Shown here: positions 1,124 through 52,998 of the stretch, piece by piece
How the letters are laid out: each line of letters starts with the position of its first letter
Numbering within the stretch: the stretch's first letter is position 1
Origin: Bdellovibrio bacteriovorus
GTDB taxonomy: Bacteria; Bdellovibrionota; Bdellovibrionia; Bdellovibrionales; Bdellovibrionaceae
Length of the DNA: 64,000 nt
NCBI RefSeq assembly: GCF_002208115.1
Contig: NZ_CP020946.1
Span: 3,596,001 to 3,660,000 of the forward strand
Direction: 5' to 3'
Program-made: the position numbers and the translations under genes
The notes under the pieces: model-generated
The model's input: only the letters and a program-made list of their open reading frames with translations
The model's database searches: none
What the model was told of the DNA's origin: nothing

Positions 1124-3091
1124 TTAGGACATTGGTTGGGGATTCTTTTCCTGGATTGGCGGATACACCGGGATGATCACGATAAACTCTGTGCCTACGC
1201 CCACTTCCGAGCGGGCCTGAATTTCGCCCCCGTGGTTCTGAACAATTCCGTAAGAGATGCTCAAGCCCAAACCGGTCCCCTGTCCGACGCCCTTGGTGGT
1301 GAAGAACGGATCGAAGATTTTTTCCAGGACATCGGCGGACATGCCCTTGCCACTGTCTTGAATTGAGACCTGCACCCAGCCACGTTTGTCCTTGGAACCC
1401 TTGTAGTCCTTCAAAGCCGAAGTGGAAATCCAGATGTGACCGCTGCCTTCAATCGCTTGCACTGCATTGGACAGAATGTTCATAAACACCTGATTCACCT
1501 GGCTGGCATAACAGTGAATCAAAGGAGTTGGCTCGTACTGACGATGAATCTCGATGCGGTTTTTAATTTCACCCTGCAACAGATTCAAGGTGGTGTCGAG
1601 ACTTTGATGAACGTCGATTTCCTGAAGTTTGGCTTCTTCCAGGCGCGAGAAATTGCGCAGCCCCAGAACGATGTCACGGGTGCGGCGGGCCCCGTCCTGA
1701 CAGGACGCCACCAGCTTCGGCAGATCTTTCACGATGTAATCAAACTCGTACTCTTCCTTCAAAGCCGGAAGCTTTGGCGGATCTTTTTCGGCCACTTCAG
1801 CCAGCTCGATCAGTCTTTCCGAGTACTCTTTAAGATGAGTCATGTTGCTGTAAATGAAGCCGATCGGATTATTCAGTTCATGCGCAACACCGGCCACCAA
1901 CTGACCCAGGCTAACCATTTTTGCAGAATGAACAAGCTTGGTCTGAGTGTCCTTAAGTTCTTTGTTGGCCGCTTCCAGCTCGGTGATTTTTTTGCGAAGA
2001 TCCGAACGGGCCACCCAGATTTTTTTGCTCATTTCATTGAAGGATTCAGTCAGAAGGCCGATCTCAGTGTCGTTTTTCACCGGAATGGTGACGGCCTGTT
2101 CCTGGGATTCAAAGGACTGCAGGGCTTCCACCAGTTCGTAAAGCGGCTTCAGCACCCAGCTTGAAGTCACCAGAATCGTCAGAACCAACAGCACAATGAC
2201 AGCACCAACGACGCTGATGAACGCATAGTTCACGTTCTTTAAAACTGCTTTGGCCTCGCTTTTTGAAGCGCCCAAGGCCACATAGAACTTCGTGATACCC
2301 CAGTTCAGCGGATAGATCAAAAAACCATAAGGGGTGCTGCGCACATTCAGATCAAAGAATGGCTCGGCCCCCGGGCGGAAATACGGACGGAAGAAGTCTT
2401 TTTTATAGAGGTAAAAATCCGGATGGCTGGCCACAACAGCCTGGCCGTTGTCCGAGAAAAAGATCAGTTCCAGCTTCAGGCGGCTTTTGATCTTGCCCAC
2501 AAAAGTTTTATTCAGATCCATCACCTGTTCCATGTAACCGACAACGCGGCCCCCGGCCCCGGTGATTTTGGAGATCAAGATCAGATTTACTTTCTGTTTG
2601 TCGCCGAATTCAGCCAAAGAGATTTCACGCTGATCTTTAACCTGCGCCATATACTTCGCAGAAAGGAAGACAGCGTCCTGCACGGGAACAAAGCTGCGCA
2701 CGTTCTCTTTTTCGTCTTTGAAAACCGAGGCCAGCATGCGGCCTTCGCGGTTGAAGAAAGTCAGACTGGAAATATTGTCGGTCTTGATCCACTGGGAAGA
2801 GATATTGCGGATGGTGCCGCTGTCGCCTTCAGCCATGTGATAGACAAGACTTGGATCACGCACATAACGATCCCGCTTTTGCTGAATGCTGGTCAGCAGG
2901 TCCGCCAGAATCAGCTCGACTTCGCGGGCATTGCCGCTCAGGCGCTGGGACAGCTCATGATCGATGGCTTTTTCGTATTTGATCATGGAATAGCCCGTGA
3001 CGAACGCCAGGGGCACGACTGAAAACAGGACGAACCAGATAATCAAGATCGTGCGCAGGGATCGTTTGGGTTTCTTCCGGAGTGTTTTCAC
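1124..3091 (-). CDS. Membrane sensor histidine kinase with periplasmic sensor, HAMP and kinase core, 655 aa
   Basis: A transmembrane two-component sensor kinase. TM1 is at about 13-37 and TM2 at about 288-313, bracketing a roughly 250-residue periplasmic domain probably of the Cache type. A HAMP-like linker and a coiled coil (about 360-390) follow. The phospho-acceptor H-box reads [11 protein letters not shown] with His404; the ATP-binding domain shows the N-box [24 protein letters not shown] and GTGLGLSI. No receiver domain or adjacent response regulator is seen, so its partner is elsewhere. The GTG start overlaps the TGA stop of the anti-sigma-like gene (GTGA), placing it third in a coupled sigma-like/anti-sigma-like/kinase operon. 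The ligand is unknown. Confidence 0.9.
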
Positions 3092-4044
3092 TTTTTGGAT
3101 TCATCCAAAGTGAAGATCAGCCGGATGATCCCGTCCGGCATCACACGAGGGTGTTTTTCTTTGGAAAATTTGGTCTTCCCATAAGTGCCCAGATAGTTCA
3201 TCAGATCCTGATACTTCGCTTCAGGAATTGTAAGGTGATAATACATGGATGTCGGAGTTTTCTTCCAACCCAGCTCCACCGAACCGGCCTTACGACCACC
3301 CAGTTCAAGGATCTTGTCATTGATCTTAGGGCCAATGCTTTCAATGTTAGTCGCAGAGATTTCACCACGATAAAGAAACCCACCGGAGGCCGCCGCAGGT
3401 GCGGTTTCTGCAGGTTTATCCGGCTTTACTGCCACCGCAGCCGGTGCCGCTGGTGTCGGTGTCGCCGATGCCACCGGAACCGGAGTGGCTGCCGCAGGTG
3501 CATCCGGAGTCTTCGCTGTCACGGCTGGAGCCGCCTCTTTAGCCCCTTCATCCACAAATTCCGGAGTCTCCTGCACCACCGTGGTGGTTTCAGTTTTGGA
3601 AACCTCCGCCAGAATCACTTCTTTGGAGCCCGTCAAGGTCCCCAACTGCATGACTTTCTGCCATGGCGTCACGGACAGTAATGTCACAATCACACCGACA
3701 ACGACCAATGCTTCCAATCCCCACTTAAGACCTTGAGGCCATTTGTCGAAGTTGGATTTTTGCATCAAGACTGTGAGATAGCTGGAAGGGGCATTGATTT
3801 GCGAAACAATGGGTTCAGACACACGCGTGTCCGCCAGCAACTCAGCGTACTTCTGGCCATTTTCGATTTTACCCAGATCCAACTGGGCATCGCGCGAAAA
3901 TTTAACATGATCTTCAACCGCAGAACGGCGTTCGGGATCCAGAGTCCCCGTCAAATAATCATAAAGCAGCTCATGCCCGATGAACGGAGAAATCTCTCTT
4001 TTGTTCTTTTTGGAGAGGGGAATTTTATTTTCCTGCTGAGCCAT
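3088..4044 (-). CDS. Membrane anti-sigma-like protein, 318 aa
   Basis: This looks like a transmembrane anti-sigma factor for the upstream sigma-like gene. The cytoplasmic N-terminus (about 20-70) has the helical pattern of anti-sigma zinc-finger domains (LLYDYLTGTLDPERRSAVEDH) but lacks the His-Cys-Cys zinc ligands. One membrane segment lies at about 108-126 (LEALVVVGVIVTLLSV). It is followed by a long Ala/Pro/Thr-rich spacer (about 150-225) and a C-terminal periplasmic domain (about 228-318) whose GG...Y...L.IPEAKYQDLMNYL pattern resembles DUF4349-type domains. It overlaps the sigma-like gene by 20 bases and the kinase by 4. The zinc-free anti-sigma assignment is an inference from context plus pattern. 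Confidence 0.65.
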   Translation of the reverse strand: MAQQENKIPLSKKNKREISPFIGHELLYDYLTGTLDPERRSAVEDHVKFSRDAQLDLGKIENGQKYAELLADTRVSEPIVSQINAPSSYLTVLMQKSNFDKWPQGLKWGLEALVVVGVIVTLLSVTPWQKVMQLGTLTGSKEVILAEVSKTETTTVVQETPEFVDEGAKEAAPAVTAKTPDAPAAATPVPVASATPTPAAPAAVAVKPDKPAETAPAAASGGFLYRGEISATNIESIGPKINDKILELGGRKAGSVELGWKKTPTSMYYHLTIPEAKYQDLMNYLGTYGKTKFSKEKHPRVMPDGIIRLIFTLDESKK

Positions 4045-4495
4045 GCTTTAGTTTACTCACACCTTGGGTCATGCTTCCCAGCTTGCGCAATGCCCGGCCT
4101 AATCTGTATCGAATAGTGCCCTGGGTAATGCCCAAACCAGCCGAAATATCATCATCACTTATCTTCAGGATTTTAGACCAAATAACAGTCAATAGCTCGT
4201 CTTCTGAAGCGGATTTCTGAAATTCACGCCATGGGCCCAGATCGACCGCATCGGGAATCAGCCAACCGGATTCCACAGTGGTGTTGGGACGTCCGCGGGA
4301 CACGCGCACTTTGAATTTGTCCCAGACCGTTTTGGTCGCGGCAACAATAGCTACAGAATTTTGCAAATCAGGATTTCGCGCCTTGCGAGCCCGACAAAGG
4401 GCCAGCGCCTGGGATGAAGCCTCTATCGCTTTTTGATCATCAAGCAGGGCAAAATAGAAAAACAAAGCGATAGATTGTACGTCAGCTTCGGTCAT
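4025..4495 (-). CDS. Small sigma-70-family (ECF-like) factor with clear region 4, 156 aa
   Basis: The C-terminal third is a convincing sigma region 4 helix-turn-helix: VIWSKILKISDDDISAGLGITQGTIRYRLGRALRKLG (in two parts, about 103-139), the part that contacts the -35 element. The N-terminal half is helical but I do not see the usual region 2 signature for -10 recognition, so this is either a very divergent ECF sigma factor or a region-4-only regulator. ATG at 4495 has AAAGG at good spacing. It overlaps the membrane anti-sigma-like gene, the standard arrangement for an ECF sigma and its antagonist, and a histidine kinase follows. Its regulon cannot be read from this window. Confidence 0.7.
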   Translation of the reverse strand: MTEADVQSIALFFYFALLDDQKAIEASSQALALCRARKARNPDLQNSVAIVAATKTVWDKFKVRVSRGRPNTTVESGWLIPDAVDLGPWREFQKSASEDELLTVIWSKILKISDDDISAGLGITQGTIRYRLGRALRKLGSMTQGVSKLKHGSAGK

Positions 4496-4554: not shown

Positions 4555-5674
<1,120 letters not shown>

Positions 5675-5700: not shown

Positions 5701-6732
5701 TTATTTTGACGCAGGTGCACACTGAATCGTAAGGTCGGTCCCCGTCAACTGACCACGGAAGCGAACTTCCAGGCCTTCATTCAGGGTTGTCTCAGCGACC
5801 ATGGTTTTGTCGATATCCAGATCCACCGCTTCAATGGCAATGCGCTCGTCTTGCGCTGCTGCAGCGGGTTTCAGGCGCAAAGTGATTCTTTCTGTCGAGC
5901 GGCCGCGGAAGATTTCACGCTCCACTTTATTGGCAACATCCCACACGATCTCTTCGTCACGACGGGTTTCTTTGCGACCGGATTCAGAGTGAGTCAGCGA
6001 ACACTTCACACGGCGCAGATCGGCTTTGGGACGCTTGAAGGACTTGTCAGACAGACAAACCGCTTCCACTTCCTTTTGAATTTCAAGGTTAGTGACCTTC
6101 AGACTGATCTGCGAACCCAGGCCCGAGCGTACCGAGAACTTGCTGTCACCGCGTTGCTGGTGCAACTGGATTTCACCCAAAGCGGCGCGACCGGTCTGAG
6201 CCGGCGTCAGCAACAAACGGCCTTTGCCATAGGAATCAACCAGGCTGCCCAGAATGTCGTAACCCTGATCGTTCTTCCCGCTCCAGAACATGTCGCGATA
6301 GATCTGACGTCTTTGCGGATTGAACGGATTCATATTCTGCAGGAATGTGCGATCTTTCAAATCCATTCCGTTCACCACACAACGAGCGGTGCTCATCGCC
6401 GGCAAAGTTCCAGGACTGCTGACTTGAGTGTTGGTGGTGCACATGCGGTTGTAAGTTTCCACGCGCATTTCGCGGGCGCAGTTGTTGTTCAAGGCATCGT
6501 TCAGCAAAGCATCGCAGTACGCATTTTTGGAGGTCAGCTTCTGGCGGCCGGTGGTGCAGCCATTGAATTTATATTCGTAGGTGAATTCACCCTGCACATC
6601 CACAGGAGTTGGCGTGGGTGTCGACGTTGTCGGAACCGGAGCCGCACCTCCGCCGCCACCGCCTCCGCCATTAGAGCAGGCCGCCACGGACAAAGCCAAA
6701 ACAGACAAAGCAAGTTGTAGATGAATGCGCAT
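5701..6732 (-). CDS. Lipoprotein of unknown function, 343 aa
   Basis: A predicted lipoprotein. ATG at 6732 has a strong GGAGG six bases upstream; the signal peptide ends in a lipobox VAAC, and the mature N-terminus starts with SN followed by eight Gly, then a Pro/Thr linker. The body has many Cys residues (several pairs between about 60 and 130) and a beta-rich C-terminal half ending in a Cys-containing strand (TIQCAP). I recognise no family. The absence of Asp at position +2 makes outer-membrane sorting likely. It lies 102 bases upstream of the mreB start on the same strand, but mreB has its own promoter. It is divergent from the giant lipoprotein gene. Confidence 0.75.
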   Translation of the reverse strand: MRIHLQLALSVLALSVAACSNGGGGGGGGAAPVPTTSTPTPTPVDVQGEFTYEYKFNGCTTGRQKLTSKNAYCDALLNDALNNNCAREMRVETYNRMCTTNTQVSSPGTLPAMSTARCVVNGMDLKDRTFLQNMNPFNPQRRQIYRDMFWSGKNDQGYDILGSLVDSYGKGRLLLTPAQTGRAALGEIQLHQQRGDSKFSVRSGLGSQISLKVTNLEIQKEVEAVCLSDKSFKRPKADLRRVKCSLTHSESGRKETRRDEEIVWDVANKVEREIFRGRSTERITLRLKPAAAAQDERIAIEAVDLDIDKTMVAETTLNEGLEVRFRGQLTGTDLTIQCAPASK

Positions 6733-6897
6733 GCTATACCTCCACACACGGTCAACACCGCCCTTACTTCAAAGACCCTGCCAACGTCATAATGCAATTG
6801 TTAGAGAACCAGAGGCCCCTTCTGTTACTCCTCTGACAGGTGTGACAATTTGAGACACTTTTCCGCCAGATTTCGCGAAAAACCAGTGATCCTCGTT

Positions 6898-6924
6898 TAA
6901 ATCCGACGAAACATCAGCCGATAA
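6898..6924 (+). promoter_or_regulatory. FliA (sigma-28)-type promoter for the giant lipoprotein
   Basis: TAAA at 6898-6901, a 15-base spacer and GCCGATAA at 6917-6924. This is an exact match to the core of the known flagellar sigma-28 consensus (TAAA, N15, GCCGATAA). A start 6-8 bases downstream falls at about 6931, three bases before the ATG, so the message would be nearly leaderless; no Shine-Dalgarno sequence is present. Confidence 0.6.
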
Positions 6925-6933
6925 GTGTAGTAG

Positions 6934-9900
6934 ATGAACGTAACGGCACTATTGATACTCCTTATCACCGGTCTGGTCTCGGGTTGCACCCTCGTGGGCA
7001 ATCTCACGGACTATAATTCCCTGACGCCGCCGGTTCTGACCGACAGTAACGGAACCAAAATTGAATCCCTGATCATCAATTCTGCCGACAGTCTTTCCAA
7101 CTACAACCTGCGCGGTGAATGCTACTATCCAAATCAAAAAATTGACGTGATCATTCAGCCCAGCCTGAACAGTCTGTCGACGATGGAACCAAAAACCTTC
7201 ACCACCGTCTGCCAGGATGGAAGCTTCAGCCTGGATGTAAATACACAAGGCTGGCCGGATGCGGAATACACTGTCAAGCTGGAAGTGACCTCATTAGCGG
7301 GAGTAAAATCTTCGAACGAAACTGCTGTCACCAAAGACATCATCGCCCCGAATGTCAGTTTCTCCACAGCCCTGCCCGCGGAAGTGGGTAATGCGCTGAT
7401 CGTGGCCCTGCCGGTGGATGGTACTTGCGAAAATGATGACGGACCTGTGTCGATTGTTTCTCAAGGCACGACGCTGGCGACTTTCACGTGCACCAACGGG
7501 ACTTTCAGTGGTCCGGTGGTTGTCGGGGCGCTCAATGACGGCGCGACTGTTTTACAGGTTTCACAAACCGACAGCGCCGGAAACACCGGCACCGCCAACA
7601 GCTCTTCTTTCAATAAAGATTCCATCGCCCCTCTTCTGCCGGTGACCTTCGGTACGTTGGGAAGCGCTCTATCCAACAATGACACGGATCGCACGGTCAC
7701 AGTGACGGTACCAGCGGACGCCACTCAGTATCGCTATGTCGTTGTGAAAGACACTGATTGCAGCAATCAGTGGGCGGCGTTGATGGCTGCCACGCCAGTG
7801 CCTGCCGGGACCCCGGCGACTTTAAGTTTTGCAGGCGATGGCCAATACCGCCTTTGTTTCATTGCCGGAGACCAGGCCGACAACTGGCAACCGGACACGG
7901 CAGTCATTGAATCCGGCGCTGTCACTATCGACACCGTGGGACCGGCTTTGAATATCACAAGTCCTCTCGCTGGCAGCAAACATAAATCCACTGTCACTGT
8001 TTCAGGTACTTGTGAAGCCGGGGCCTCTTTAAATTTTGCCGGCGACTATACGACTTCGCCATCCACCGGCACCTGCAGTGTGGGTGGAACTTTCAGCTTT
8101 AACATCACGCTGACGGCCGGGGATGGGTTGAAAAACTTCACGCTGTCCTCGACTGACGGCGCAGGCAACACGACAAATCACACCGCCTATTCTTTGATTC
8201 GTGACAATGTGATTGTGGCTCCGTCCGTGACGTTAAACACAGCAAGCACCACAAACAACCCTGCCGCGAAGTTCACAGTCAACGACTGCAGTGATGCGAC
8301 TTTCATTCTGATGAAAGAAATCAATGCGCCTCCGGCCCTGGGGGATTCCGGCTGGATCGCCTGCTCGACTGCGGCACAAAACTATACCTTTGATCTGAGT
8401 GCCAATGGCGATCAGCAGGGGCTTCGCAACGTGCGCTTCTATGCCCGTGATGAAGCTGGGAACATTTCCACCGCAACAGTCTTTACTATCACCTATGACA
8501 GCAAGGCTCCCATTTTGACTTTGGATCCGGTGCCGACCCTGGCCATCAATGTCAGCTATCCCTTTGTGGTTTATGTCACCGAAGCCACCGTGACTGCGGC
8601 GGACACTTTGTATTTGGACTATTCCACTGACGGCGGCACCACCTGGAATGTGGCCACCAGCCGTGCGTTGGGACTTGCAGGTCCCATGAACAACAAATCC
8701 TTCACCGTGAATTGGACGCCGAATGCCTACAACACCAATGTGCTGGTGCGCGCGCGTTTGACCGACAGCCACGGATTGACTGGCACCGGCACCAGCAACG
8801 CTTTCGATGTGATCCTGGACACCATCAAGCCCGTTATCACGGCGAGTGAAATGAAAATCAATGGACAGCTTGATCCGGATGATACCGTACGGTCTTACGT
8901 CACCGTCAGCCTGAAAGCGTCAGACGCGGAAACTGCTGTCACCAAGTTCTGCTTAAAGACCACCAACAGCGCTCCGAATGCCTCTGACAGTTGCTGGGTC
9001 AGCGTGAAAGCACCAAAACCAGGCCTTGCTGAACTGCCGACCTTAACCCTGGTGGATTTTGATTTCTTCCTGGGAATCAATTTTGGCAGCTATAGCATCT
9101 ATGCCTGGGTGATGGACGTCGGTGGCAATATCAGCACCAATTCCGCAACCCTTGAAAAAGACTATAACACCATCAACTACATCAACGATCCGCCTCCCCT
9201 GGTGGCAAACTTCCTGACGGTGAATTCGACCACCCCGAATAATCCGCCAAATACTTTTGACATGAACTTTGCCAATGGCGCTGCCGCCCACATCAGTTGG
9301 CAAGCCAGTGACAATGGCACGATCGCCAAGGTCGAACTGTTTTATGCCATCGACGGTCAGCCGTTCACTCTGATTTCAGGTGCACTGGCGAACAATTCCA
9401 GCAATGCGACAGCGTGTGCGTATTCGGCTCCGCGCACGGGTTGTTATCTTTGGAACTCGACTGTTCCCAACGACACTTTCTTCAAGCTGCAGATTCGCGT
9501 GACTGACAACAACGGACAGACCTCTCAGGTCACCAGTCCCCCGCTGAACAGTGGTGCTTACAATCTGATTGCCGGAAACCAGGATCCAGGACATGACGGA
9601 AATGCCAAAAGCACCGTCTTTAATACCAATGTGAACACAGACACCGCGCCCGGCACAGTGCTCGTCACTACCGATGGAAAAATCTTCTTCAACGATTCCT
9701 CTTACGGCATCATTTACATTGATCCGACCACCAACAACTCGAAGGTCCTTTTGCGTCTGGCAAAAGAAAATGAAAATGCCTTTGGCGATGGCATTCCGGT
9801 GGAACAGGCTCGCGCCAAGGCGATCTTGCGTACAGCGCTGGACTATCAGAACCGCATTCTGGTTTATGACCGCGATATGATCCGTCGAATCGACACCAAC

Positions 9901-11787
9901 GTCACACCGATGACAATTGAAACCCTGATTGGTGCGGACCCGGCTGGAAATCTTGGAACGGACACCGCCGACACTGTGGCCGATCCACGGGACTTGAGAA
10001 TCAATCTGATCAAGACTTCGTCTGTTGATGAAACCTGGCCGATCCGCCGACGTTCTCCGTTCATCCCTATGCCTAACGGGGATCTTTATTTCATTTCAGA
10101 AAAACCCCAGACAGCCAAAGACAACGGGGGTCGCATCCGCCTGTATAAAGGTTCTTTGGCGGTTCCGCGTGTGGAAAGCGTGCGATTCTCAGGAGCTGGG
10201 GTCTTTGGTCAACCGGCCTGGGATCTGAACACGATGCCTTATTCATTCTTCAGCTTAAAATTTGACCCTGCGACCAGTGCCATTCAGAAAGCCTACGTTC
10301 AGGCAATCTATAGTGTCCCGGGAAATTCTTACGGCCCGATGACAGAACTTGATCCGGTGACCCTCGTGGGAAATGGTGTTTTCCCGAATCATCCGTTTGG
10401 AAACTCTTCTCTGACTTATTACGACGTCCAGGGCATGGACGGCCGCGTTTACCGCGCCAATCGATCCACCGAAAACGGCGTCAGTCAGTTGCAGGATGAC
10501 GGCACCTGGGTGCGGGTTCTGGGAACCGGTTCTCAAGGGGAATGTGCCGATGGAGTCGATGCGACTTCCTGCCCGGTCGCACTGGATGACGTCTTTGTGG
10601 ACCGTTATGGCCGAATCTTCTTTTCTGCGCGAGGAGTTATCCGCACTGTCGTGAACGGCAAAGTCTATACCCTGTTCGGTCAGCGCAAAGACGCTGGGGA
10701 TGGCGGCTCCGGATTTGATATGCGTCTGGCTTCCGTTACCTACATTGATCACAGTGTGGGCGATGGTGTGATGTTGTTGGATCACCAGCAAAACAAACTG
10801 CGCGAGGTATTCCCGGGGGCATCTCCGGAAGTCCGCCTGGTGGCCGGTGACGGCGCCAATGCGGGAGTCAATTTCGGTATTGCCGCCAATCTGCAGTCCA
10901 TTCTTTTGGGGAACTGGTGGGACCCGAATCAGTTTGCCACCAATCCGGCCAATGGTGATGTTTACATGAACTGCGCCAACAACAAAGTACTGGTCACTCC
11001 TCCAAGCACTTATACGGTCTATCACAGTGTCTGCCGTCTGAATCGCGCCACCGGCCTGTGGGAACAGATGATGAACGGCGAAGGTGCCACACCAAGCCAC
11101 TCTCAGACTTCCATCAATTACGGTGATCTGCAGTTGGTGGGTTATTCTCCAGAGATCGTGGGCTTCAAGGCCGGAAATCTTTTGATGAACAATCTTTACT
11201 GGAACGGAACCGCTCACCACAATGCCACCTTCCGTCTGATCACGCCAACCACCACCCATCACGTCGGTGGTCGCATTAGCGTGGACTCAGATGCTGATGA
11301 CTGTCCGGACGGGCTTTCCACAGACTGCTCATTGGGTGTGAGCGGGGTTCACCGAGTGGCTGCGCCTGTGTATTTTGATCAACTGAGCGGCTGGATGTAC
11401 ACCCCGCCAGTAAATGCCTCAATCCTGACGGCGAAAATGCACGTGCTGTATTCTGGCAACGTCAAGACCTTGCTGACACTGCCGCAGATTCCAAGCGCCT
11501 ATGCTTATGATTCTGCGGGAGCCGCAATTTACTACTGTGGAAATGTCGACAAGAAACTTTATAAGGTCGCGATTCATAATGCGGGAGATCTGGGAAATAC
11601 CGCCGTATGGCCATTGGCTTCCGGGACTCACTTTACCATCACCGAGCTTCCGATGCCGACGGACTCGATTACATGTCAGGGGCGCCGCATTCTGATCAAG
11701 GCCGCTTCGGGACCAAAACCAAAACGCCTGGTCTTTATGGCCATGCAAAATGGTCTGCCGGCCGTTTCGGAATACTTTATTCCTTAA
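6934..11787 (+). CDS. Giant surface lipoprotein with Ig-like repeats and an NHL/propeller-like C-terminal half, 1617 aa
   Basis: A lipoprotein: short signal peptide with lipobox LVSGC (Cys18). The first 800 or so residues carry repeated immunoglobulin-like units, each opening with a D-x-x-x-P signature near residues 134 (DIIAP), 229 (DSIAP), 333 (DTVGP), 523 (DSKAP) and 629 (DTIKP) and containing the GTCE/GTCS and SxDGAGN patterns of bacterial Ig folds. From about residue 890 the pattern changes to repeats of the kind seen in NHL or beta-propeller domains (VLVTTDGKIFFND, DYQNRILVYDRD, DVFVDRYGRIFFS). Such architecture suggests a surface adhesin or carbohydrate-binding protein, but no ligand can be named. 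The frame cannot extend upstream because TAG precedes the ATG. It ends with TAA abutting the glpD stop. Confidence 0.8.
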   Translation: MNVTALLILLITGLVSGCTLVGNLTDYNSLTPPVLTDSNGTKIESLIINSADSLSNYNLRGECYYPNQKIDVIIQPSLNSLSTMEPKTFTTVCQDGSFSLDVNTQGWPDAEYTVKLEVTSLAGVKSSNETAVTKDIIAPNVSFSTALPAEVGNALIVALPVDGTCENDDGPVSIVSQGTTLATFTCTNGTFSGPVVVGALNDGATVLQVSQTDSAGNTGTANSSSFNKDSIAPLLPVTFGTLGSALSNNDTDRTVTVTVPADATQYRYVVVKDTDCSNQWAALMAATPVPAGTPATLSFAGDGQYRLCFIAGDQADNWQPDTAVIESGAVTIDTVGPALNITSPLAGSKHKSTVTVSGTCEAGASLNFAGDYTTSPSTGTCSVGGTFSFNITLTAGDGLKNFTLSSTDGAGNTTNHTAYSLIRDNVIVAPSVTLNTASTTNNPAAKFTVNDCSDATFILMKEINAPPALGDSGWIACSTAAQNYTFDLSANGDQQGLRNVRFYARDEAGNISTATVFTITYDSKAPILTLDPVPTLAINVSYPFVVYVTEATVTAADTLYLDYSTDGGTTWNVATSRALGLAGPMNNKSFTVNWTPNAYNTNVLVRARLTDSHGLTGTGTSNAFDVILDTIKPVITASEMKINGQLDPDDTVRSYVTVSLKASDAETAVTKFCLKTTNSAPNASDSCWVSVKAPKPGLAELPTLTLVDFDFFLGINFGSYSIYAWVMDVGGNISTNSATLEKDYNTINYINDPPPLVANFLTVNSTTPNNPPNTFDMNFANGAAAHISWQASDNGTIAKVELFYAIDGQPFTLISGALANNSSNATACAYSAPRTGCYLWNSTVPNDTFFKLQIRVTDNNGQTSQVTSPPLNSGAYNLIAGNQDPGHDGNAKSTVFNTNVNTDTAPGTVLVTTDGKIFFNDSSYGIIYIDPTTNNSKVLLRLAKENENAFGDGIPVEQARAKAILRTALDYQNRILVYDRDMIRRIDTNVTPMTIETLIGADPAGNLGTDTADTVADPRDLRINLIKTSSVDETWPIRRRSPFIPMPNGDLYFISEKPQTAKDNGGRIRLYKGSLAVPRVESVRFSGAGVFGQPAWDLNTMPYSFFSLKFDPATSAIQKAYVQAIYSVPGNSYGPMTELDPVTLVGNGVFPNHPFGNSSLTYYDVQGMDGRVYRANRSTENGVSQLQDDGTWVRVLGTGSQGECADGVDATSCPVALDDVFVDRYGRIFFSARGVIRTVVNGKVYTLFGQRKDAGDGGSGFDMRLASVTYIDHSVGDGVMLLDHQQNKLREVFPGASPEVRLVAGDGANAGVNFGIAANLQSILLGNWWDPNQFATNPANGDVYMNCANNKVLVTPPSTYTVYHSVCRLNRATGLWEQMMNGEGATPSHSQTSINYGDLQLVGYSPEIVGFKAGNLLMNNLYWNGTAHHNATFRLITPTTTHHVGGRISVDSDADDCPDGLSTDCSLGVSGVHRVAAPVYFDQLSGWMYTPPVNASILTAKMHVLYSGNVKTLLTLPQIPSAYAYDSAGAAIYYCGNVDKKLYKVAIHNAGDLGNTAVWPLASGTHFTITELPMPTDSITCQGRRILIKAASGPKPKRLVFMAMQNGLPAVSEYFIP

Positions 11788-23382: not shown

Positions 23383-23601
23383 CTAGAGGGAAGTATACCA
23401 GACGTTCTGAACGGACCACAGGCCGCCCACAAAGAAGCACACCCACCCCAGGGATTTGTGCTTGGCCAAATTGGCATAGGCCTCACCCATGCGTTCCTGC
23501 CCGATGCGCGCCAGAACCGGGTTCTCCAACACAACAACCATCAGGAGTCCATAGAAAAAAACCACGAAGGGAAAAATAAAATCGAGCTTTTCAGGTGTCA
23601 T
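23383..23601 (-). CDS. Small inner-membrane protein of unknown function, 72 aa
   Basis: Two hydrophobic segments (about 7-26, DFIFPFVVFFYGLLMVVV, and about 50-66, SLGWVCFFVGGLWSV) separated by a polar stretch with LARIGQERMGEAYANL. Not a recognised family. I prefer ATG at 23601 over a TTG two codons upstream. No Shine-Dalgarno is present, but CCGATAA ends seven bases upstream on the minus strand, so the message could be leaderless or nearly so. It is followed by xseA 56 bases downstream and might be the operon's first gene. Confidence 0.65.
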   Translation of the reverse strand: MTPEKLDFIFPFVVFFYGLLMVVVLENPVLARIGQERMGEAYANLAKHKSLGWVCFFVGGLWSVQNVWYTSL

Positions 23602-23646
23602 ATTCAATTTATCGGAGCTTTACCGGAAAGTAAGAGTCCGGTTCGA

Positions 23647-23674
23647 TTGACGATACGAAAAGACATGATAGAAT
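23647..23674 (+). promoter_or_regulatory. Sigma-70 promoter for the structured RNA
   Basis: TTGACG (23647-23652), 16-base spacer, TAGAAT (23669-23674): 5/6 at each box. The predicted start at about 23681 coincides with the first base of the RNA's closing stem. Confidence 0.6.
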
Positions 23675-23680
23675 GGTTTA

Positions 23681-23862
23681 CAGAAGGGTTCGACGGCGTA
23701 AAGCTCTATCGAAAATAAACCTTACAAGCATATTTTTGGGGACTGTCCCTGACAATGGTGAGCAAGCTCAGCTCGTACTGAGAAGCCTAAAGTTGTTATC
23801 ATGGTTACCCACCTTAGCTAAAACAGGTTTACTTTTTCAGAGTGGTCTTCGAGCCTTTTTTT
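23681..23862 (+). ncRNA. ssrS: Candidate 6S-like structured RNA, about 180 nt
   Basis: No plausible protein lies here. The 5' end (23682-23693, AGAAGGGTTCGA) pairs with the 3' end (23849-23860, TCGAGCCTTTTT) over 12 positions, including three G-U pairs. Further in, CTCT (23704-23707) pairs with AGAG (23839-23842), and GAAAATAAACCT (23711-23722) pairs with AGGTTTA-ct-TTTTC (23825-23838). A large open centre follows, and an apical hairpin CTCAG-CTCGTA-CTGAG (about 23768-23783). The promoter starts at the closing stem and a T-run ends it. A rod of about 180 nt with an open centre is the 6S RNA architecture; 6S binds housekeeping RNA polymerase. The identity is inferred from shape and length only. 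Confidence 0.5.
23849..23862 (+). terminator. T-run ending the structured RNA
   Basis: The 3' arm TCGAGCC is followed by seven T (23856-23862). The stem partner may be the local GGTC (23844-23847) or the distant 5' arm of the RNA. Confidence 0.5.
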
Positions 23863-23964
23863 ATTTGTCTCAAGCCGAGACAGTCCTGCAAAAAACTTCG
23901 TCATTTCCTCAATAATTTCGATTAAGAAATAGGGCTTTCGCGCGTTCAGCCCACCCCCCGTAAA

Positions 23965-23972
23965 TCCGATAA
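23965..23972 (+). promoter_or_regulatory. FliA-like -10 element before the metalloprotease lipoprotein gene (weak)
   Basis: TCCGATAA ends seven bases before the ATG at 23980. It matches the sigma-28 -10 core, but the expected -35 position reads TCAG rather than TAAA. No Shine-Dalgarno is seen. Confidence 0.3.
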
Positions 23973-23979
23973 GATCTAC

Positions 23980-25950
23980 ATGACTTTGAACCGGATGATG
24001 GCTGGTTTTATCAGCGCGTGGACTCTTATTCTGACAGCTTGTGGTGGTGGCGGCCTTGAAGGCGGCGACTATTCATCCAATGCCCCAGCCTCCCCCGAAC
24101 CGACCTATTACGGCAAACCCACCGATATGGATGCCGCCCAGTCCGTGACCGTCACACTGCCGGCAAAGTTCCTGTATCGGGGCCTGAGCTTCAGTCCGGG
24201 CAGCTCTACCAACGGGCTGACTTCCGTGGTTTCTGCCGCCAATGCCATTCCCATCGCTTTTGCTGAATTCCATATCTACGATTCCTCCGGCACGCGCATC
24301 CAGCAGGGTGAAACAAACACCAATGGGATTGCTTCTTTCATGATCCCGAAGACCACCGGAACCTACACCTTCAAAGTATTCTCGCGCGCCTACAACGACT
24401 ATTTGAAAGTGAGTGTGCTGGCGGATATCTATTCCAACACACCTCACTATGCTGAAAAGTCTTTCACGATCACCGCTGGTGACATTACAGCAGGAACGAA
24501 GGATCTGACATCGACCCCGGTTTATGCCGAAGCCAATGAAAGCATCTCTTCACGCGTTGAGGGTGGTGCCTTCAACATCATGTATGACATCCTGCTGGCG
24601 AATGAATACATCCGCCGCAATATCGGCAAGAACAACGGAGGCACCCCGTCCACGGACACCAACGTGTGGTGGGTGGCCGACAAAGTCACTGTATTCTGGA
24701 AAGCCGGCTTTAATCCTTACTCCTATTTTGGTTCCAACTCCCCGCTGTCTTTTTATTCGCCGGGGGATCGCAAATTATACATTCTGGGCGGCGTGAATGG
24801 GGATGTGAAGTCCTCGGACACGGATCACTTTGACGATTCGGTGATCTTGCACGAATACGGCCACTTCCTGGAAGACGTTTACGGGAACTCTGGATCTCCG
24901 GGTGGGTCCCACACGGGGAACTTTGTGATTGATGCCAGACTTGCGTGGAGTGAGGGCTGGGCCAATTACTTCCAAGCTGCTGTTCTAAGCGGTGCAGATG
25001 CAGCCTTTAACAACGCTGATGAAAATCGCGCACCGACAGACCCTCGCTATCATTATTACGTGGACACTTATGGCTATCGTGCCTCAGGCAACACCGCAGG
25101 TGTCAGCATTTCCTTCAACCTTTGGCAGGATGGAACCGCGGCCAGCTATGACAACACCGCCTCGGACCTTGCCGGGACCGGTACTTTCCGCGAAGTTTCA
25201 GTGTCCCGGGCTCTGTACAAAGCCACTCGCAAAGACGATGCTCAGTACGAAGCCACCAAATACGGTGGTGGCATAACCTTCACCAATATCTGGAAGACCT
25301 TTGCCGGTGAAGACACTTCCGGCCACAAGAAATCCAACCCGATTACCACCAGTCTGGTGAACACAACGACCTATCCGGTACCAAGTGTGGGACTGTTCAA
25401 CAATCTGCTTTCCCGTAACGTTGTCGGTGCCACCGCAAAATGGGATGCGATCTTGACGGAAGAAAAGCAGACCAAGACCACCAAAGACTATGCGTACTAT
25501 CTGGGAACAACCGGGGGCGCCTGCTCGGGCACAACTGAGTTTACTGTCGGCAAAGAAGAACAGCTGATGACCGCCAGAGACAACGTTAAACGTTCAGACC
25601 AGCAGGTGAACAATGACTTCTATCTGTACTATCACGATGGAACTTCCACAACCCTGGCGATGAACTACACAAGCACCAAACTGGATTTGGACCTTATCTT
25701 GTACAAGAAAGACTACGTCTACTTTGAAGACACTTACAGAAATGCCGGATACACTTCGGACTATATCGTGAAGCAAAGCCGCAACGTGGCCACCACCTCC
25801 GAGAGTATTTCTCTAAGCGGCGTTCCGGCGGGATATTACATTCTGAACGTCAAGATCAACGCTTACGGCAAAACAGCATCGCAGATGAACACCAATGCGA
25901 CCTACAGCTTAACCAAAGGGGGGACCGCGATATGTGGAACCGAAAGATAA
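23980..25950 (+). CDS. Lipoprotein with HExxH zinc-protease motif, 656 aa
   Basis: The signal peptide ends in lipobox LTAC (Cys21) followed by GGGG and a Ser/Pro-rich linker. Residues about 80-180 form a beta domain of the carboxypeptidase-regulatory type (AFAEFHIYDSSGTRIQQGET..., GIASFMIPKTTGTYTFKV). The catalytic core has VILHEYGHFLEDVYG with His291, Glu292 and His295, then AWSEGWANYF with Glu325 30 residues later as the likely third zinc ligand, the gluzincin arrangement. A C-terminal beta domain (about 530-656) resembles pre-peptidase C-terminal domains. It is probably a surface or periplasmic metalloprotease, with a possible role in prey digestion (inference). It overlaps the next gene by 19 bases. 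Confidence 0.8.
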   Translation: MTLNRMMAGFISAWTLILTACGGGGLEGGDYSSNAPASPEPTYYGKPTDMDAAQSVTVTLPAKFLYRGLSFSPGSSTNGLTSVVSAANAIPIAFAEFHIYDSSGTRIQQGETNTNGIASFMIPKTTGTYTFKVFSRAYNDYLKVSVLADIYSNTPHYAEKSFTITAGDITAGTKDLTSTPVYAEANESISSRVEGGAFNIMYDILLANEYIRRNIGKNNGGTPSTDTNVWWVADKVTVFWKAGFNPYSYFGSNSPLSFYSPGDRKLYILGGVNGDVKSSDTDHFDDSVILHEYGHFLEDVYGNSGSPGGSHTGNFVIDARLAWSEGWANYFQAAVLSGADAAFNNADENRAPTDPRYHYYVDTYGYRASGNTAGVSISFNLWQDGTAASYDNTASDLAGTGTFREVSVSRALYKATRKDDAQYEATKYGGGITFTNIWKTFAGEDTSGHKKSNPITTSLVNTTTYPVPSVGLFNNLLSRNVVGATAKWDAILTEEKQTKTTKDYAYYLGTTGGACSGTTEFTVGKEEQLMTARDNVKRSDQQVNNDFYLYYHDGTSTTLAMNYTSTKLDLDLILYKKDYVYFEDTYRNAGYTSDYIVKQSRNVATTSESISLSGVPAGYYILNVKINAYGKTASQMNTNATYSLTKGGTAICGTER

Positions 25951-51532: not shown

Positions 51533-51560
51533 TAAACCTTTTAGGCAGGTCTGCCGATAA
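51533..51560 (+). promoter_or_regulatory. FliA (sigma-28)-like promoter for the coiled-coil secreted protein
   Basis: TAAA (51533-51536), 16-base spacer and an exact GCCGATAA (51553-51560). The known consensus spacer is 15, so this is one base long. The start would be near 51567, leaving a 40-base leader with GGGGAGGAAATCAA before the ATG at 51607. Confidence 0.45.
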
Positions 51561-51606
51561 TTGGTACTGGTATTGCACCACTCATTATCATCGGGGAGGA
51601 AATCAA

Positions 51607-52998
51607 ATGAATAAGATTTCAAGCTCTAAAAAAAATGCATCTGTCAAAACAGTTATCAACATCCTGAGCGTCCTTTCTTTGGTAGCCCCTTCCGTATCTT
51701 TGGCTGAAGGCCTTAGCTTTACCAAGTCCTCTGAAGAAGTCGCTGAAAGCAAAGCGGCTCGACTGCAATCGCAATGTTCCCAAGCTCGCAGTGAAATCAC
51801 GACTGCTAAGAATAAAATCGCCGAAGCCTGCCGCAAAGCCGGCATGGGTTCAGGATGCGCGGAAAAAGCCGCTGCCTGCTCCGAAACTTTGGGCACTGAT
51901 AGCTTTGACACCACTGACGCCATCGGCACTTTGATGGGTCTTCCGGCCGGCTCCAATATTGGTGGCTCTTGCCCACAGATGAATGGTCGCGACTATTACG
52001 ACGAAAAAAAGCGCCTTGAAACCGAGATCAAAGACACTCAAAAAGACATCGCCGAACTGGCTGATGATGAAGCTGAGATCAAAGAGACGTTCAATACGAC
52101 CATTCAGGAACTGCAACAGGCTCTGACCGATGCCCAACAGGAACTGGAAGAAACTAAGACGTCATTGGATGAGCAAGAGCGTGAAAAGATCTCTGAGTTC
52201 CAGGCCAGCCAAAATGCTGCCAAAGAAAAGCTGCGCGAATACAACTCCAAAATCATCGCTTTGCGTTCTGAGATGACCAATGCCGTTCGTGAAAAAGCGA
52301 CCAAAATGCTGGAATTAACGGCAGAAACATCCAAGTATGCTTGTAATCAGGAATACACCAAGGCCGCTGAATCCTATGGCAAAGTGAACGCGACCTCCAA
52401 CAAAAGCCATATTTCCAAAGCCAAAGCACAAAAAGCTGCGGCTTTGGATGCGTTCAACAAATGTATGAACCGCTTCCAGCAGGCTCGAATTTCTTTGAAC
52501 GAACAAAGTGCCGCAAAAATGGAATCCATCAACGACCAGATCCGCAATGCTGAAGCCAGCACCGACGAACTGAATGATTCTTTGAATCTGGCTTCCACGC
52601 AGTTGGATCAGATGAAAGCGGACACTGCCAAAAGAAAAACTCAGGCCGAAAAGAAGGTCACTGACCTGATGACCCTGACTCAGAACAAGATGCAGGCGGC
52701 TCAGGAAAACATGCAGACCAAACTAAAAGCCCTGGCTACTAAACAGCAGAGCTACACCGAGGCCTTGAACCGGGCGAACAACTCTTTGATGACTTTGGGT
52801 CCTGCGCCAAAACGTGGTGCGGAATACACATCTGAGGAAGCCTCCAGTGAAATCTCCGCGCAAACTGAGATTATTGAAGATGTAAAGGCGACTGTAGCTT
52901 CGAATTCCGAACTGGCCGCTCAATGCCACCTGGGTGATGCAGCAAAAGGATCCTCAAAACGTTCCCGCAGCTCGGGCTCCAAATCAGGCAGAAAGTAA
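51607..52998 (+). CDS. Secreted coiled-coil protein of unknown function, 463 aa
   Basis: Signal peptide about 1-33 (VINILSVLSLVAPSVSLA). Most of the mature protein is coiled coil with Glu/Lys/Gln/Ala heptads (about 130-215 and 270-390), broken by a Cys-containing, less charged stretch (about 60-110: CRKAGMGSGCAEKAAACS) and ending with a basic Ser/Lys/Arg tail (SSKRSRSSGSKSGRK). No known family. A scaffold or structural surface protein is plausible. GGGGAGG precedes the start, and a FliA-type promoter motif lies upstream. Confidence 0.65.
   Translation: MNKISSSKKNASVKTVINILSVLSLVAPSVSLAEGLSFTKSSEEVAESKAARLQSQCSQARSEITTAKNKIAEACRKAGMGSGCAEKAAACSETLGTDSFDTTDAIGTLMGLPAGSNIGGSCPQMNGRDYYDEKKRLETEIKDTQKDIAELADDEAEIKETFNTTIQELQQALTDAQQELEETKTSLDEQEREKISEFQASQNAAKEKLREYNSKIIALRSEMTNAVREKATKMLELTAETSKYACNQEYTKAAESYGKVNATSNKSHISKAKAQKAAALDAFNKCMNRFQQARISLNEQSAAKMESINDQIRNAEASTDELNDSLNLASTQLDQMKADTAKRKTQAEKKVTDLMTLTQNKMQAAQENMQTKLKALATKQQSYTEALNRANNSLMTLGPAPKRGAEYTSEEASSEISAQTEIIEDVKATVASNSELAAQCHLGDAAKGSSKRSRSSGSKSGRK

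Follow-up and report, generated by a model that had tools for sequence, protein, structure and literature searches.

A FliA-type promoter abutting the start codon of a giant lipoprotein gene in Bdellovibrio bacteriovorus, one member of a genome-wide class with near-fixed spacing

The gene for a giant lipoprotein of Bdellovibrio bacteriovorus is preceded by a promoter-like sequence that ends a few bases before the start codon. This raises the question of where its mRNA begins, which sigma factor directs its synthesis and whether the arrangement is peculiar to this gene. The window, i.e. the whole stretch of DNA analysed, covers 64,000 nucleotides; the features of the locus are as follows.

6897-6901, + strand: -35 box TTAAA (TAAA core 6898-6901), recognised from the sequence, the published consensus and TAAA-like boxes in orthologues
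6917-6924, + strand: -10 box GCCGATAA, recognised from the sequence; CCGATAA intact in five of nine orthologues
6932, + strand: predicted start of transcription at a T/A step, judged from genes with the 7-base spacing and from Escherichia coli aer
6934-11787, + strand: giant lipoprotein of 1617 aa, with Ig-like repeats in the N-terminal half and lipobox Cys18

Read base by base, TAAA (6898-6901) is followed by 15 nucleotides, by GCCGATAA (6917-6924) and, after a spacer of 9 bases (GTGTAGTAG), by ATG 6934, exactly as an earlier note on this DNA had described; as also noted there, the sequence upstream of this ATG contains no GGAG-like Shine-Dalgarno (SD) element. Two stop codons, TAG TAG, end the frame upstream of the ATG, and a signal peptide with a lipobox (LVSG, then C18; MNVTALLILLITGLVSG before C18) follows within 18 codons, so that no other start is plausible. 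The 1617-residue frame is real and conserved, with 93-38% identity in nine relatives; its lipobox is kept in the orthologues, its C-terminal half is conserved, and a copy that is 76% identical occurs in B. bacteriovorus kdesi. The signal peptide itself (MNVTALLILLITGLVSGC, 6934-6984) is unusual in that its n-region has neither lysine nor arginine; more distant orthologues begin MRN, and the loss of K/R accompanies a start codon shifted one codon inward. The Ig-like repeats and lipid anchor point to a role at the cell surface. Searches of NCBIfam and the PDB gave no confident function, no relative of the protein or of its conserved C-terminal half was found by sequence in the PDB, and a structure prediction of residues 870-1617, made from two sequences only, reached a pLDDT of 28.5.

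The identity of the promoter relies on several kinds of evidence. The site, TTAAA-N16-CCGATA, differs by one mismatch from the Bdellovibrio sequence TTAAG-N16-CCGATA and has exactly its spacing; that sequence is reported for 92 of 140 mapped attack-phase promoters of B. bacteriovorus (Karunker et al. 2013, PMC3627812). Compared with the E. coli -35 consensus TAAAGTTT (PMC2859248), the TAAA core alone is matched. Of nine orthologues, five (L008, L009, L010, L011 and L015) have kept the -10 box unchanged, 6-10 bases ahead of the start codon, together with recognisable TAAA-like -35 boxes; in L012-L014 the box reads CCGATGA or CCGAAGG, and in L016 it is displaced. The genome has one fliA gene above the family cut-off (TIGR02479, 280.5 bits versus a cut-off of 189.6). 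Sequence, conservation in orthologues, the published attack-phase consensus and the presence of fliA thus support 6897-6924 as a FliA promoter, as the earlier note had proposed. Dependence of the gene on FliA would be expected from this, and attack-phase expression would follow from the promoter together with the facts on its class given below. The view that expression follows motility is too narrow, FliA being thought in B. bacteriovorus to be a global attack-phase regulator of surface proteins, proteases and flagella alike (PMC3627812).

The likeliest transcription start is A6932, leaving a leader of 2 bases, with 6930-6932 possible and hence a leader of 2-4 bases. In E. coli aer, the mapped start lies 6 bp beyond the sigma28 -10 octamer (PMC2859248), a distance that therefore allows 6930-6931 here; A6932 is favoured over 6931 because of the comparison with genes having a 7-base gap between CCGATAA and ATG. 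The start at about 6931 and the 3-base leader put forward earlier lie within error of this position, although a 2-base leader is the likelier one.

A search of the whole genome (a single contig of 3,769,537 bp, genus Bdellovibrio) for the motif, recommended in the earlier note, gave six sites of TAAA-N13..17-GCCGATAA versus one for the reversed pattern. It was extended to CCGATAA followed by ATG. For gaps of 4 to 12 bases, 8, 10, 5, 35, 14, 11, 6, 10 and 3 cases were counted, i.e. a sharp peak at gap 7 with 35 cases versus 8.4 per other gap. At this gap, 33 of the 35 open a reading frame of at least 50 aa, whereas the other gaps average 3.75 such cases (P = 2.7e-20). Gaps 6, 8 and 9 contain some further likely real members, the giant lipoprotein gene (gap 9) included, and the class is estimated at roughly 30-45 genes. 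Genes of the L007/L008 type begin one codon further in than their relatives, whose start reads ATG CGG AAC (gap 9 versus 6), and this accounts for the slight departure of the giant lipoprotein gene from the usual spacing. The nearly leaderless mRNA predicted by the earlier note is strongly supported by sequence as one case of a class with fixed spacing across the genome, so the arrangement is shared and not special to this gene.

Several properties of the gap-7 sites point to promoters placed against start codons. A pyrimidine stands 21 bases before the box in 32 of 33 cases, versus a random 19 of 37 at gaps 4, 5 and 10-12, and this weak -35 trace marks CCGATAA at gap 7 as a promoter element. 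ATG prevails among the start codons, with 35 cases versus 14 of GTG and TTG together; the latter (control, 6) mostly lie within longer frames and form no comparable peak. This bias agrees with the preference of leaderless initiation for AUG in E. coli (PMC9031893). In 29 of 33 gap-7 genes the ATG directly follows a C or T, versus 11 of 16 SD-bearing genes of the window, which may be taken as modest evidence for a leaderless start. No clear spacing peak was found in the genome for TATAAT-N-ATG, and plausible genes begin at no more than a minority of its sites with gap 6-7. A link of the arrangement to FliA is thereby suggested, although TATAAT is just one form of the sigma70 box. Among family members and related giant lipoproteins, 25 of 36 have a CCGATAA box matching in at least six of seven positions at gap 6-10, versus 0.7% of shuffled upstream sequences; the set includes orthologues, so its members are not independent. 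Paralogues of the giant lipoprotein, here and in other species, mostly have the same box just before the start. Two further class members occur in the window, together with two genes that have SD sequences.

23966-25950, + strand: second class member, a 656-aa lipoprotein-like frame (CCGATAA 23966-23972, N7, ATG 23980)
23383-23615, - strand: third class member, a 72-aa membrane protein (CCGATAA 23615-23609, N7, ATG 23601)
51533-52998, + strand: leadered contrast, with a FliA-type promoter TAAA-N16-GCCGATAA (51533-51560), an SD leader GGGGAGGAAATCAA-ATG and a 463-aa frame (51607-52998)
5701-6732, - strand: neighbouring contrast, a divergent, lipoprotein-like gene preceded by a normal SD (GGAGG-TATAGC-ATG)

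The genes for the 656-aa and 72-aa proteins are divergent (23383-25950), and similar pairs, 0.4-3 kb apart, occur in genomes G006, G015 and G019.

The products of the class are diverse, with an inclination to the cell surface. Nine members, eight at gap 7 and one at gap 6, are MAT-type (mosaic adhesive trimeric) fibre genes recognised by the N-terminus ...LTYQGRI; two MAT-type members were checked with NF053851, and one of them also matches the MAT structures 8oml, 8ol4 and 8ond. Strain HD100 has 21 MAT proteins (PMC11003981), and attack-phase cells display tagged MAT proteins on their surface (Caulton et al. 2024, PMC10769870), a paper in which the words 'promoter' and 'FliA' are absent. The giant lipoprotein is not a MAT fibre: the MAT N-terminal domain (NF053851), present in L167 and L093, is absent from it, and it has Ig-like repeats and a lipid anchor signal instead. 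Other members encode giant Ig-repeat lipoproteins, a phospholipase D-like lipoprotein, a papain-like protease, a solute-binding protein, PilZ and FlaG proteins, a sigma54 activator, secreted proteins and proteins without family. By a simple hydropathy rule, 24 of 33 members have a hydrophobic N-terminus versus 19 of 52 frames of the window (P = 0.002). In contrast, six flagellin genes have a long leader, with a clear SD in five or six of them, so the arrangement is not simply the look of every FliA gene. Since several other FliA-type promoters in the genome also precede SD leaders, leadered and leaderless mRNAs alike seem to be driven by FliA, the leaderless kind leaning to the cell surface.

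Collectively, these data make it probable that a sigma28 promoter is fused to the start of the giant lipoprotein gene and that the mRNAs of the class are leaderless, or nearly so, in attack phase. RNA polymerase would start about 2 bases before the AUG at the giant lipoprotein gene and, in most other members, at the AUG itself or a few bases before it. Laying GATAA over the sigma70 TATAAT hexamer would put the A of the gap-7 ATG at +1, and from the aer start, 6 bp past the octamer, leaders of 0-2 bases at gap 7 and of 2-4 bases for the giant lipoprotein gene are expected. FliA would be the main determinant of the output of these genes, as neither an SD nor a 5′ UTR could serve for control, and ribosomes would have to load on a 5′-terminal AUG. 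Across the class, exact transcription starts, FliA dependence, attack-phase expression and leaderless translation are what we infer from promoter sequence and spacing. Several points speak against this reading: the aer distance taken literally leaves 1-2 bases before the AUG at gap 7 and not none, four orthologues (L012-L014 and L016) have a degraded or displaced -10 box, the giant lipoprotein gene has gap 9 and not 7, and reporters lacking a ribosome-binding site are weak in attack-phase cells, as discussed below.

Other explanations have to be weighed against a promoter fused to the start codon. A match beside the start codon could be fortuitous: TAAR-N16-CCGATA taken alone is a weak marker in the genome, with 21 sites versus 12 for the control and some matches inside genes. 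Membership in the class (P about 1e-20) and conservation of the box in orthologues and paralogues make such a coincidence extremely improbable. Alternatively, CCGATAA near the AUG might act as a signal in the RNA or DNA, read in translation or by a regulator, rather than as a promoter box, an idea suggested by a distance to the AUG (7 bases) that is kept more tightly than the -35 region. It is very unlikely, however, as CCGATAA corresponds to the sigma28 -10 box published for mapped attack-phase promoters (PMC3627812), has a -35 trace at the right distance and also occurs far upstream of SD-leadered genes; by our own reasoning, it is not complementary to the anti-SD either. An SD-like role of CCGATAA in particular was rejected given the -35 trace and the published transcription starts.

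A more serious alternative accepts the FliA promoter and assumes that its RNA is poorly translated, a second promoter upstream giving a longer-leadered mRNA that is translated. It agrees with the weakness in attack-phase cells of reporters lacking a ribosome-binding site (PMC12622784), although those reporters were not native leaderless fusions, and the A+T-rich upstream sequence could hold putative weak sigma70 boxes. Yet no SD lies before the ATG at a distance usable by a longer leader, so that an upstream start is no cure for the missing ribosome-binding site, and nothing would then keep the spacing at 7 bases in about thirty genes. This alternative therefore seems unlikely, and a sigma28 promoter fused to the gene start is preferred. 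A bolder extension of the preferred reading supposes a distinct leaderless translation programme in attack phase, in which FliA mRNAs starting at the AUG serve adhesins and surface lipoproteins and flagellins stay SD-leadered; it is rather doubtful. If true, attack-phase ribosomes would favour leaderless mRNAs, and the switch to growth would change both the genes transcribed and the kind of mRNA translated.

Leaderless mRNAs and FliA promoters are each already known; what is new is that the promoter arrangement forms a genome-wide class with fixed spacing. The closest system is the FliA attack-phase regulon described by Karunker et al. (PMC3627812) in the same group of organisms, with the same TTAAG-N16-CCGATA consensus and similar kinds of genes (surface proteins, proteases and chemotaxis), of which the class genes are presumably part. 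The main text of that report has nothing on leaderless mRNAs, mRNA 5′ UTR length or a fixed 7-base spacing to the AUG, and a search of the open-access literature found no report of leaderless mRNAs or of a leaderless FliA regulon in Bdellovibrio. Leaderless genes described elsewhere (Zheng et al. 2011, PMC3160421; Leptospira, PMC5243855; review, PMC9031893) likewise have a -10 box at a short fixed distance, no SD and a preference for AUG. However, the survey by Zheng et al. considered sigma70-like TANNNT boxes only, whereas the box here is of the sigma28 type; large numbers of other leaderless genes were judged unlikely in that survey. A precedent within the FliA/WhiG family is Streptomyces whiH, cited in the same survey as leaderless with the sigmaWhiG -10 box GCCGACAA; there a single developmental gene of an actinobacterium is concerned, in Bdellovibrio a regulon of surface proteins. 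The class would form a leaderless regulon associated with a single alternative sigma factor and a single life stage, and its common promoter architecture links prey-recognition fibres with giant surface lipoproteins.

The arrangement is conserved within the genus. In 24 Bdellovibrio genomes, 568 cases occur at gap 7 versus 230 at gap 11 (totals summed by hand); because CCGATAA-N11-ATG occurs 230 times, a reversed-pattern control is judged too lenient, and the contrast between these two spacings is the fair one. CCGATAA-N7-ATG may serve as a simple picker of candidate attack-phase genes in any Bdellovibrio genome, and the class helps to mend start-codon calls. It also advises caution with reporters to which a ribosome-binding site is added, as they alter the native mode of initiation, and it makes selective translation of leaderless mRNAs by a non-growing predator testable. 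Beyond Bdellovibrio, the excess is weaker, and gap-7 counts are lower and overlap the background. In one genome of the same order and another family (G057), 26 cases of CCGATAA-N7-ATG face one of the lenient reversed control, and the arrangement may extend beyond the genus.

A few further loci deserve mention. The class member encoding a GAF-sigma54 activator (L126, G000:C1:2000592-2000608) has a gap-7 FliA-type start, and a link from FliA to sigma54 genes is possible. At L037 (G000:C1:188184-188209), TAAAG-N16-CCGATA precedes an SD-leadered gene whose product has an N-terminus, MALIPYVIEQTSKGERSYD, resembling ClpP. Finally, the minus strand of the window at 1124-4495 encodes a sigma-70 region 4 protein, a zinc-finger protein (possibly an anti-sigma factor) and a histidine kinase, in a cluster adjoining mreB (4555-5646).
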